From a virus, in the IMG/VR virus record IMGVR_UViG_3300025886_000087, positions 1 through 34,558 of that record: DNA of 34,558 nt. One strand, 5' to 3'. Both the position numbers and the translations under genes were made by a program. Shown here in pieces: positions 2,719 through 34,558 of this stretch (positions within the stretch are counted from its first letter, which is position 1; each line of letters begins with the position of its first letter). Below the pieces are notes generated by a model. The model searched no databases and was not told where the DNA came from. It saw only the letters and a program-made list of their open reading frames with translations.

Positions 2719-3240
2719 ATGACCATAAATATAAGTCAATACTATAACACTCACAAAAAAAATTTAAATCAGAATCACTTTATCTATAAAGTAAAGAAAG
2801 CATTCTACCTTCTAACAAACCATGAAGAAAGATTATATGAGGTAGGGTTTTCAGAAGGGTTTTTATATGCAGCAGAAATGCTACAGAAGAAACCAATAAT
2901 AGATAGCAATGTTAAACATAAAGTTGGTGTCAAATATAAAAATGCAAATATAGAAGTTGTTTCTAAACTTGTAGATAAAGTGTGTGAAAAATATACTGTT
3001 AGCAAGCACGATGTGTTTAGCAAAGGTAGAACTACAGATGTAGTTAGAGCAAGAAGCATTGTCTATAATCTTTTACATGAAGAATATAATGTAAGCGTAT
3101 CTTCAATGAGTAGAGTATTTAACCAGGATCACACAACTGTATTACATTCTCTTAAAAATAAAATAGAGAAGAAACGATATTGGAATCCTGGAAATACTAT
3201 TTGGGAAGAGTTTGAAGAGTTAAGAAAAATTACTTTTTAA
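2719..3240 (+). CDS. Stand-alone DnaA domain IV-like DNA-binding protein
   Basis: This protein has 173 residues. Residues 80-150 match the C-terminal, DnaA-box-binding domain of bacterial DnaA: VSKLVDKVCEKYTVSKHDVF, VVRARSIVYNLL (108-119), and the signature DHTTVLHSL at 137-145 containing the base-contacting Asp-His-Thr. The AAA+ ATPase domain is absent; the first 75 residues are an unrelated helical segment. It should bind DNA but cannot by itself melt an origin, so it may recruit, block or redirect host DnaA, or act as a transcription regulator. The ribosome site TAGGGGATCT precedes the ATG. It overlaps convergently with the next - strand gene by 11 bases. Confidence 0.85.
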   Translation: MTINISQYYNTHKKNLNQNHFIYKVKKAFYLLTNHEERLYEVGFSEGFLYAAEMLQKKPIIDSNVKHKVGVKYKNANIEVVSKLVDKVCEKYTVSKHDVFSKGRTTDVVRARSIVYNLLHEEYNVSVSSMSRVFNQDHTTVLHSLKNKIEKKRYWNPGNTIWEEFEELRKITF

Positions 3241-28402: not shown

Positions 28403-28727
28403 TCGGTTTTTAAAACAACTAAAAAATAATTTTTGGAAAAGGTTTGTATAACTGGTGCAGGGTGTCTGTGTGTGTCTGTTAGCAAATCCCATGTATAATG
28501 ATATGTATATCGCACGCCATTTTCTGGGGTGTACCCCCTCTCTATATTTCAAAAATCTTTTTTTTTTGTAGGTTTATTCAATAAATATTACTAACGATAA
28601 TTCCAGACTATCAATACTAATAAAAAAAAATCTTTTAGTATGGTCTATTCTTTTAATTAACCGTCTTATTGTTTCCGTTCTTTATATCGCATAAAAAATT
28701 CCAGGTTGAGTGTGTTTCTTTTTAGTA

Positions 28728-28769
28728 TACTTATCTCTCTATATTTATCTCTCTATACTTATCTCTCTA
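28728..28769. repeat. Three tandem copies of a 14-base unit
   Basis: TACTTATCTCTCTA, TATTTATCTCTCTA and TACTTATCTCTCTA follow each other without spacers; copies 1 and 3 are identical and copy 2 differs at one base. A partial match (CTCTCTATATTT) lies 190 bases upstream at 28538. The units are in noncoding DNA and strongly strand-asymmetric (pyrimidine-rich). They may bind a phage protein, perhaps the DnaA-like or terminase small protein. Confidence 0.75.
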
Positions 28770-28832
28770 TAATATCTATCTCACTCATTCAATAATACTT
28801 TAGAACTATTCTAATCTATTTGATGCGTCAAC

Positions 28833-28860
28833 TTGTCATGTTCTAATTTTCAATTATATC
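28833..28860 (+). promoter_or_regulatory. Probable early promoter
   Basis: TTGTCA (28833-28838) and TATATC (28855-28860) are 16 bases apart and would start RNA about 38 bases before the first early gene at 28905. The match to a sigma-70-type promoter is fair, and the phage has no visible RNA polymerase of its own. Strength and regulation unknown. Confidence 0.45.
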
Positions 28861-28904
28861 TATAACTTGTTTTTTAAAGACAACTTAAACAAAAAAGGGA
28901 AAAT

Positions 28905-31835: not shown

Positions 31836-32311
31836 TCTTTATTATCTGGGGGTATAACTTCTGTTATATCCTCAGATACATCAATAATATTATCCTCATC
31901 ACTCTCCCAAGAAATAGTCATTTTAGAATCAATATTTTGTTTAATAGGTTTATTATCAGAATAAAGATCTGTTAATTTATTAGCTAAGAAAGTTATAAAT
32001 TTAGTTTTCTCCCTAATCCAAAGTATGGCATTAGGATTTTCCAATTCTTGATATTGGAATACTTGCAGCAATTTATCAATTAAAGTCTGAACTCCGTATT
32101 TCCGTGCTTCAGTTATTCTTATCTCTAATTCTGGATTTTTTTTTAAGTACGAATAAAACTTCATCAAGCTGAACGGATATACTTTGTGATCTTCTAGAAT
32201 TTCTGTAAGGGTTTTTCCACTTGCTAGTTTCTCGCAAATTGTATCTGCTTGGTCTATTGTTATCAATTCCTGGTTTGATTTTTTCGTGGTAATATTTTTG
32301 GAGCTGTTCAT
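31832..32311 (-). CDS. terS: Probable terminase small subunit
   Basis: In this 159-residue protein residues 20-85 (QADTICEKLASGKTLTEILE, PFSLMKFYSYLKKNPELEIR, EARKYGVQTLIDKLLQVF) follow the helix-turn-helix pattern of Sf6-like small terminases: cyclic helix, FYSYLKKNPE, then A/Y-rich helix. The acidic C-terminus (SDEDNIIDVSEDITEVIPPD) could contact the large subunit. The start is not well supported: no ribosome site, and the first 200 bases overlap the upstream gene in another frame, so a later start or coupling is possible. It is separated from terL by the early cluster. Confidence 0.7.
   Translation of the reverse strand: MNSSKNITTKKSNQELITIDQADTICEKLASGKTLTEILEDHKVYPFSLMKFYSYLKKNPELEIRITEARKYGVQTLIDKLLQVFQYQELENPNAILWIREKTKFITFLANKLTDLYSDNKPIKQNIDSKMTISWESDEDNIIDVSEDITEVIPPDNKD
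31843..31878 (+). terminator. Sixteen-pair hairpin at convergence of early and terS transcripts
   Basis: TATCTGGGGGTATAAC (31843-31858), loop TTCT and GTTATATCCTCAGATA (31863-31878) pair completely in rightward RNA, with two G-U pairs. In leftward RNA the same two positions are A-C mismatches. It lies eight bases after the last early gene and inside the 3' end of terS coding. No U-run follows, so termination may need Rho or another factor, or the hairpin protects the mRNA end. Confidence 0.65.
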
Positions 32312-32537
32312 CTGTATAATTTTTAAATTGAATTAATCCTTTTAGTTGTTTTATTCTAGTTTCATCTGAGTAGTTTTTTTTAAATCCCTTAACATTTTGA
32401 TAGCCATGATATTTACACTTGTATGTATTATTTGCAAGTAGATAACCCTTCATTTTACAAGGTATTTTTTTACCTACTCTTAACCCAGCTCTAGTATTTC
32501 CTTGACAAAATACTTTTCTCATTGGTCTGCCTGGCAT
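32109..32537 (-). CDS. HGG-like zinc protein upstream of terS
   Basis: This 142-residue ORF has an N-terminal part with a phage-type zinc motif: KVFCQGNTRAG, KIPCKMKGYLLANNTYKCKYHGYQN, comparable to the C...C...CxxHGG proteins often found with terminases. LKGLIQFKNYTDEQLQKYY around 65-83 also looks real. Beyond about residue 76 it overlaps terS in another frame and the end (FVLKKKSRIRDKNN) is unconvincing. AGGAG precedes the ATG. It could help packaging or late regulation. Confidence 0.6.
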   Translation of the reverse strand: MPGRPMRKVFCQGNTRAGLRVGKKIPCKMKGYLLANNTYKCKYHGYQNVKGFKKNYSDETRIKQLKGLIQFKNYTDEQLQKYYHEKIKPGIDNNRPSRYNLRETSKWKNPYRNSRRSQSISVQLDEVLFVLKKKSRIRDKNN

Positions 32538-32590: not shown

Positions 32591-33292
32591 TTATTTTGGT
32601 TCTCCTTTCCAATTTAAATTGTTTCTTTTATTGTATTCAACTTTAGCCTTATAAAAAGGATTAGCTTTTTTCTTTTGGTTTTTTAAGTTTGTTAACGCAG
32701 CTACAATTTTATCTCCAGATACATAGGTTTTACCCTCAGAATCTTTTTTTCTTTCAATAGCAAGTTTGCAATAATAAACATTAGCTTTATCATTTTCTAA
32801 CTCTTCCAGAGGTAGCTTAGATAGTTGATCTACAATCCTTTCCTTATCACCTGCAAATCTCTTTAAAATATTACTTATATTATTAATGTATAATGCTTCT
32901 TCTAATGTAGCCGTAAAACGGCTATCTGGTGATGGTTTAACGGCTATCTGGGAGCGTGAGATAGGTGTATTACGGCTATCTGGATATGTGTTTTCAGATT
33001 TTAAAAATACTTCATTGACAATATAAGTTTTTCCAGATCTCCCTCGAATAGCTTTAACAATATTTAATTTGTTTAAAGTCTCCAGGCAAGATTTGATTGT
33101 AGTTCTACATAATCCAGTATCCTTATGGATTGTCTCATGTCTAAGATCTGCTTTGTATCCATTTTTTTTCCAAGCATATTTCATCACAGATAAGAATACA
33201 TTTAAGCAATGCGACTTTCTTTCTCCATCTAAAATATCCATATGATGATAGATTTTATAAGTTATGTGTAAAAATCCTCTTGATGTGTTCAT
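32591..33292 (-). CDS. Winged-helix replication protein (lambda O-like organisation)
   Basis: In this 233-residue protein residues 20-95 form a winged helix: helices ATIHKDTGL-type HETIHKDTGLCRTTIKSCLE, then LNKLNIVKAIRGRSGKTYIV as the wing. Residues 98-130 are a linker encoded by DNA that contains three exact 12-base direct repeats. Residues 131-233 are helical and basic, ending NPFYKAKVEYNKRNNLNWKG. The plan, with an N-terminal DNA-binding domain, repeats within the linker DNA and a C-terminal domain for partners, is that of lambda O. It probably initiates phage DNA replication. No helicase loader gene is adjacent. Confidence 0.75.
   Translation of the reverse strand: MNTSRGFLHITYKIYHHMDILDGERKSHCLNVFLSVMKYAWKKNGYKADLRHETIHKDTGLCRTTIKSCLETLNKLNIVKAIRGRSGKTYIVNEVFLKSENTYPDSRNTPISRSQIAVKPSPDSRFTATLEEALYINNISNILKRFAGDKERIVDQLSKLPLEELENDKANVYYCKLAIERKKDSEGKTYVSGDKIVAALTNLKNQKKKANPFYKAKVEYNKRNNLNWKGEPK
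32862..32895. other. A/T-rich candidate DNA unwinding element
   Basis: This stretch is A/T except for a couple of positions, inside the winged-helix gene and downstream of the iterons in the gene's direction. In ori-lambda the A/T-rich opening region lies in the same place relative to the O iterons. The whole genome is A/T-rich, so the content alone is weak evidence; the position is the argument. Confidence 0.45.
32918..32983. repeat. Three 12-base iterons, candidate replication origin
   Basis: ACGGCTATCTGG occurs exactly at 32918-32929, 32940-32951 and 32972-32983, with spacings of 22 and 32 bases. An imperfect inverted copy lies at 32958-32968, and TAGCCGT at 32908-32914 forms a seven-base inverted repeat with copy 1. 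Copies 1 and 3 encode Pro-Asp-Ser-Arg, but copy 2 is in another frame (Ser-Gln-Ile-Ala-Val), so the DNA sequence rather than a peptide is conserved. Interpreted as binding sites for the encoded winged-helix protein. Confidence 0.75.
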
Positions 33293-34182: not shown

Positions 34183-34558
34183 ATGGAAGATAAAATAAAA
34201 AAAGCATTTTCAATATTTAATGGTGGTGAAGGATTAGATCATTGGTCTTATAGTTCTACAAGTACACCCTTTGCAAAAAATTTAATTGGTTATACTTTCC
34301 CACAAGAAGTTAGAAGAACTTTCGCATTTAGATACAAAGCTAACTTTGGAAACCTGGTTAACAATGTGGTCCAGAGAATGATTGCAGATGTTATTTATAA
34401 AACAAAAACAATTAAGCAAGATGAGTTTACAGAGGAAGAGAGAAGCTACCAAAATTGTTTCGCAGCAGAATTAGAATTAATAAATAAAAATCCACCAGTA
34501 GATGAAAAAGATAAGTTTGGCAGAGAAGCTATGTTAAAATTTGCCGAAGATTGTATTC
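34183..34558 (+). CDS. RecB/Cas4-like PD-(D/E)XK nuclease, N-terminal part (continues at base 1)
   Basis: The ATG at 34183 follows AAAAGGAAAAAA. The translation begins MEDKIKKAFSIFNGGEGLDH, includes GNLVNNVVQRMIADVIYKTK (a helix that often precedes the RecB-type core), and runs open to the end of the window. The frame is the same as that of base 1 after the 133-base repeat, so the two parts form one gene of about 306 codons. The catalytic residues lie in the part at 1-678. Confidence 0.85.
   Translation, partial: MEDKIKKAFSIFNGGEGLDHWSYSSTSTPFAKNLIGYTFPQEVRRTFAFRYKANFGNLVNNVVQRMIADVIYKTKTIKQDEFTEEERSYQNCFAAELELINKNPPVDEKDKFGREAMLKFAEDCI
34426..34558. repeat. Terminal direct repeat, right copy
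   Basis: This is the second copy of bases 1-133 with three third-position differences. It lets the window be closed into a circle of 34425 unique bases. The choice of which variant is the major one cannot be made from this sequence. Confidence 0.9.

Follow-up and report, generated by a model that had tools for sequence, protein, structure and literature searches.

A candidate lambda-like replication origin inside the initiator gene of HTVC010P-type pelagiphages

Introduction

The origin of phage lambda lies inside its own initiator gene, O, where four iterons (39034, 39054, 39078 and 39101, with spacings of 20, 24 and 23) are found mid-gene, just past the part encoding the N-terminal winged-helix domain, and are followed in the gene's direction by an AT-rich tract. 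Stx phages have six iterons, two more than lambda, with the number varying by in-frame insertion, and in lambda-type origins the two iterons adjoining the AT tract are enough to give unwinding and replication in vitro (PMC7466680, citing Dodson 1986 and Wickner and McKenney 1987). In phage SPP1, oriL lies inside gene 38 (encoding gp38), and the host polymerase is used (PMC6316719). The plan of an origin within an initiator gene is thus already known, as lambda and SPP1 both have it. Here we describe a similar arrangement of repeats, within a gene that we propose encodes an initiator, in the IMG/VR virus record IMGVR_UViG_3300025886_000087 (34,558 bases; the window hereafter, meaning the whole stretch analysed), which gene order and tblastn matches place among the HTVC010P-type pelagiphages.

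These phages form the proposed family Ubiqueviridae, and one member, Skadi-1, has no genes for a DNA polymerase, a helicase or a primase (PMC10504331). A sequence-only reading of the window had proposed a self-contained origin of the lambda type and knew of no description of one for such phages; we likewise found no account of the origin of the HTVC010P-type family in the literature searched, subscription papers excepted. The plan's detection in this family is new, as are the reinterpretation of the gene as one for an initiator and the documented switching of iterons.

Results

Candidate iterons in the linker of the proposed initiator gene

A 12-mer (CCAGATAGCCGT on the gene strand, ACGGCTATCTGG on the plus strand) occurs in three exact copies within the initiator gene (Table 1), with spacings of 32 bp from copy 1 to copy 2 and 22 bp from copy 2 to copy 3, so that copies 1 and 3 are 54 bp apart. 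Because of these spacings, copy 2 is out of frame with the other two: copies 1 and 3 encode PDSR, and copy 2 encodes part of QIAV. The three copies, the frame offset, an imperfect inverted copy and an inverted half-site had all been noted in the sequence-only reading, and all are present. That reading had also argued from the frame offset that protein constraint cannot account for copy 2. Of 20,000 synonymous recodings of the gene, none gave two copies of the 12-mer, and the longest out-of-frame repeat among them was 11 nt, versus 13 nt observed. Any 12-mer occurring three times within 100 nt was likewise absent from all 200 order-2 Markov simulations of the window. Its emphasis on two reading frames is correct for this gene but does not mark a novelty, as the four iterons of lambda fill all three frames. 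No fourth exact copy was found anywhere in the window record, and the genome has one other cluster of three copies of a 12-mer, the tandem array near 28731-28772. The inverted copy and the half-site are weak when the window is taken alone; better versions occur at the same place in relatives, such as GATAGTCGT in L008.

Table 1. Features of the candidate origin and of the gene that contains it (positions in the window).
Feature	Position	Strand	Remarks
Initiator gene (proposed), 233 amino acids	32591..33292	minus	O-like winged-helix protein
Winged-helix domain (predicted), codons 6-92	33017..33277	minus	AlphaFold2 pLDDT (predicted local distance difference test) mostly 80-93; winged-helix/helix-turn-helix profile matches
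Linker, codons 100-135	32888..32995	minus	mostly predicted disordered; encoded by iteron region
Iteron 1, CCAGATAGCCGT	32972..32983	minus	exact copy; missing in short-linker relatives
Imperfect inverted copy, core CTATCTCA	32957..32968	plus	4 mismatches; accompanies site 1 in long-linker relatives
Iteron 2, CCAGATAGCCGT	32940..32951	minus	exact copy; frame encodes QIAV
Iteron 3, CCAGATAGCCGT	32918..32929	minus	exact copy; 22 bp from iteron 2; frame encodes PDSR
Inverted half-site, ACGGCTA	32908..32914	plus	directly after iteron 3
AT-rich putative unwinding element	32864..32893		least stable 30-mer of genome
C-terminal domain, codons 138-223	32624..32881	minus	conserved; all-helical in model

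Conservation of spacing and change of sequence among relatives

To compare this region among relatives, we assembled 202 unique near-full genes from IMG/VR contigs and isolates, which form 94 clusters at 90% identity and 16 at 60%. A linker repeat pair at exactly 22 bp, with a match of at least 10/11, was found in 77 of the 94 clusters, versus a mean of 4.6 and a maximum of 10 under synonymous recoding; allowing 21-23 bp raises this to 85 of 94 (recoding mean 13, maximum 20). With clustering at 60%, 9 of 16 clusters have the 22-bp pair (recoding mean 0.4, maximum 2). The N-terminal part of the same gene, taken as a comparison, gave at most six clusters at any spacing. The position of the pair within the linker shifts by about 50 nt while the spacing is constant, and the repeat sequence differs among lineages while the spacing is kept. 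The expectation that the repeats would persist and hold their frame offset as the linker changes is thus strongly borne out, and the comparison supports a self-contained origin plan of the lambda type.

The form GATAG-17-GATAG is present in 116 genes, and in all of them the two copies are in frames 2 and 0. The four bases that follow GATAG vary by lineage and tend to agree between the copies: CCGT (encoding AV in one copy and SR in the other), ACGT (DV and RR), CCAC (AT and SH), CTCA (AH and SS) and CCAA (AK and SQ). For example, a single C-to-A change present in both copies (L027 and L383) replaces Ala by Asp in one reading frame and Ser by Arg in the second. The copies are identical in 43 of 55 representatives versus a shuffle mean of 24.4 and maximum of 32, a statistic that ignores kinship. 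Mixed states between copies are also found (ACGT/TCGT, ACGT/CCGT and CTAA/CCAA), and these may be intermediates of iteron change. Unrelated iterons with a 21-23 bp period occur in HTVC034P (ATGGGTATTAAAGAACAC), Skadi (TGTATAWAAAAGATCA) and L191 (ATGTATAAAAATGAAACATC), and L229 has another of unrelated sequence at a 23-bp period (AGGGGGTATAAAA). L334 and L338 (28-29% identical) also have iterons of their own with a 21-23 bp period. At least six iteron types are present among about 100 clusters. Within the genomes that have GATAG-type iterons, the exact core is found only in the initiator gene. HTVC034P (L098) has more repeats of 22-bp period near the rep gene and outside the coding linker, at 2038-2080 and 2602-2645, as detected by Tandem Repeats Finder.

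An AT-rich neighbour and a stretch of frozen codons

The A/T stretch that had been seen downstream in the gene's direction is confirmed: it is 93% AT and, by nearest-neighbour energy, ranks first for weakness among the 34,528 30-mers of the genome. The 30-mer at the homologous place ranks 2nd in Skadi-1, 3rd in Greip, 18th in Lederberg, 23rd in HTVC203P, 40th in HTVC100P and 72nd in HTVC010P. The element is on the C-terminal-coding side of the iterons and adjoins them in most, though not all, isolates. In the 58 representatives that share at least 60% identity with the window protein, codon identity at identical residues peaks for the gene at codons 122-134 (0.92-1.00) and is still high at most positions to about codon 150. 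This nearly frozen stretch runs over iteron 3 and the half-site and into the AT-rich element. We would add the caution that codon conservation in genes of this kind is a mark of DNA sites, not of protein function.

The encoded protein

The AlphaFold2 model, built from an input alignment of contig sequences only, has a mean pLDDT of 76, with a predicted recognition helix at residues 63-75, values below 50 at residues 100-121 and 132-135 of the linker, which is thus predicted to be disordered, and helices from residue 138. PHROG replication-initiation families (O-like or other) were matched by seven of eight diverse members (best 1.3e-7 and 3.7e-7); for the O-like initiators, phrog_678 matched the window protein at E 1.7e-4, and the best member reached 3.7e-7. 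The window protein did not match the phage replication protein O models PF04492 and TIGR01610, to which weak matches were obtained for two of the eight members (best E 0.0018) and three of the eight (best E 0.0018), respectively. Viral fold matches include 'lambda GpO, N-terminal' and replisome organizers; a PDB sequence search gave no credible relative. Outside the linker, the strongest association with iteron type is at residue 68, in the recognition helix, an association confounded by descent and linkage, and members of the CTCA type, and likewise those of the CCAA type, have a set of changes in common around residues 53-72.

Homologues of the gene were found in 19 phage records, all of them pelagiphages, and are labelled in isolates as 'putative transcriptional regulator' or 'hypothetical protein'. 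The sole tblastn match outside the pelagiphages was to the replication initiation O-like protein of Aggregatibacter phage S1249, which the winged helix of the distant L334 matches at E 5e-3; this match covers 36% of the L334 query at 30% identity.

Genome and gene setting

The first 133 bases of the record match the last 133 (1-133 and 34426-34558, with 3 mismatches, within a nuclease gene), so the window amounts to a circularly permuted and essentially complete genome, about 34.4 kb long; this circular completeness had gone unrecognised. Downstream of the initiator gene is a conserved gene for a 142-amino-acid protein (32109-32537), followed by the small terminase, which is part of the same operon. 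The product of 32109-32537 has no Pfam or PHROG match and has relatives only in pelagiphages; some records give it the label 'putative methylase'. Around the initiator gene, promoters and terminators did not exceed the level of shuffled sequence. A short protein encoded at 2077-2346 aligns with PHROG 'nucleotide kinase' families (E 3e-29) over their C-terminal part alone; the kinase label would mislead, because the kinase part is absent. A search of host genomes retrieved a single relative, a 17,456-bp contig (L432) in a GTDB genome labelled Woesearchaeota, and this is probably a viral contig in the bin, since it is equal in length to IMG/VR record 2785511133_000004.

Discussion

A likely origin bound by the protein that its gene encodes

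From the repeats, their fixed spacing, their matched out-of-frame change, the codon freeze, the AT-rich neighbour and the O-like winged-helix homology, we consider it highly probable that the linker repeats and the AT-rich element form a self-contained origin of the lambda kind, to which the encoded protein binds. The iterons would be binding sites for the winged-helix protein of the same gene, which would occupy two to three direct iterons and the inverted half-site along one face of the duplex; a 22-bp step makes about two turns of the helix. Once bound, the complex would strain and open the AT-rich element, which starts about 25 bp further in the gene's direction, and the helical C-terminal domain, a candidate helicase-recruiting part, would bring in the host replicative helicase and polymerase III, either directly or through a phage or host protein. 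Binding, initiation at this place, melting, helicase recruitment and use as an origin in the cell are all parts of the proposal that we infer.

Like lambda ori, the iterons are mid-gene just past the winged-helix domain (gene offset 309, versus 348 in lambda), are followed by an AT-rich tract in the gene's direction, and have the two AT-proximal copies as their core; iteron number also changes by in-frame insertion, as in lambda and the Stx phages. In contrast to lambda, the pelagiphage iteron is a 12-bp core without the 18-bp dyad, no P-like helicase-loader gene adjoins the initiator gene, the protein has very low sequence similarity to lambda O, the operon includes the small terminase, and the iteron sequence has switched several times within the family. 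SPP1 is alike in having an origin within an initiator gene and in using the host polymerase, but it has a second origin, the loader gp39 and the helicase gp40, none of which was found in the pelagiphage.

Several results weigh against an origin at this place. The weakest 30-mer of the gene is away from the iterons in 4 of 11 genomes (HTVC204P, HTVC024P, HTVC035P and HTVC034P), although with 45-bp windows three of these four, HTVC035P being the exception, have the weakest stretch beside the iterons. In the homologue comparison, the HTVC203P group has no clear repeat pair; such counter-cases are a small minority. Lambda O itself is matched weakly at the profile level (hhalign probability 8%, E 0.004). 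A helicase-loader gene could not be recognised, and Pfam and PHROG searches of 32109-32537 gave no P-like gene directly downstream of the initiator; a 'helicase loader' is mentioned for Skadi-1 (PMC10504331), but the Skadi-1 record has no gene of that name. The iterons and the recognition helix are within about 150 bp of each other, and their changes could therefore travel together by recombination. Finally, the sequence-only reading had looked to cumulative GC skew for an origin near 32.9 kb, and there this was not borne out: the skew does not turn there, and its turns at 28.9 kb (minimum 28,938) and 3.2 kb are switches of gene orientation. Skew on the left and right plus-strand genes is also contrary to a simple bidirectional origin at 32.9 kb in 9 of 11 genomes (p=0.014). 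Since skew mainly follows the coding strand, it is mostly uninformative on the origin, and we dropped it as a locator, with the left/right test weakly contrary.

Other explanations

The protein may instead regulate transcription, with the repeats serving as intragenic operators through which it controls its own gene or downstream genes. The 'putative transcriptional regulator' label, weak matches to winged-helix regulator profiles and PDB fold matches to generic winged-helix proteins, mostly repressors and all at E>0.01, are in keeping with this. However, the exact GATAG-type core is nowhere else in those genomes, early promoters included, which argues against a general transcriptional operator; the sites are mid-gene, the phage profile matches are to replication initiators, and the AT-rich neighbour and a codon freeze that extends beyond the repeats suit an origin better. 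We regard this explanation as improbable.

Somewhat less probable again is a start elsewhere, by the DnaA domain-IV protein (encoded at 2719-3240) or in the intergenic region 28553-28904, with the linker repeats having another role. The product of 2719-3240 matches Bac_DnaA_C at E 1e-14, the DnaA-like gene is labelled 'DNA replication initiation' in several isolates, and the intergenic region has a tandem 14-bp array and the skew minimum. Against this, exact DnaA boxes (TTATNCACA) number 0-3 per genome and are unclustered in the 11 genomes, none of which has a box cluster of the DnaA/oriC type, and near-matches to the box are rarer than in shuffles; an oriC-like origin for this protein is therefore disfavoured. 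In addition, the protein has no AAA+ part, the array is not common to relatives, and the skew turns have the explanation given above. The DnaA-like gene is annotated in 9 of 10 isolate genomes, and its domain-IV-only protein possibly acts on host DnaA boxes. The array itself (28726-28771) is TATACTTATCTCTC in 3.3 copies and sits in the intergenic region from which the terminase side and the early genes diverge; the corresponding region of HTVC204P contains a 26-bp array that differs from this one.

A role of the repeats in RNA, with the inverted copies pairing into an mRNA structure, is very improbable: the linker RNA of the window does fold better than shuffles (z -3.5), but the mean z over 48 representatives is -1.5 with one third below -2, the strongly repeated HTVC034P and L027 show little or no folding excess, an Rfam search gave no match, and the fixed 22-bp phase is unaccounted for. 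Selection at the protein level, or recent duplication, fits the in-frame 21-bp copies that encode repeated peptides in some members (HTVC034P and L191), but we give it hardly any credence, as the two copies of the conserved pair are in different frames both in the window and throughout the 116 GATAG-pair genes, the linker is predicted to be disordered, and the third HTVC034P copy is out of frame at 22 bp.

Extending the proposal of a lambda-like origin, we suggest, as a speculation that we think rather unlikely in its full form, a one-protein origin, in which the O-like protein would mark the origin and bring SAR11 DnaB through its C-terminal domain without a loader, the DnaA domain-IV-only protein would compete for host DnaA boxes and so free the host replisome, and the recognition helix and iterons would be swapped within the family as one module that sets origin specificity.

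HTVC010P-type phages are among the most abundant viruses in the ocean and infect its commonest bacteria. The described members encode no DNA polymerase, and their initiator and origin had apparently not been identified before, the initiator gene having been labelled a transcriptional regulator and the DnaA fragment an initiator. The present result offers a specific, testable origin for these phages, as well as a natural data set on the joint change of an initiator and a binding site when both occupy one stretch of DNA.
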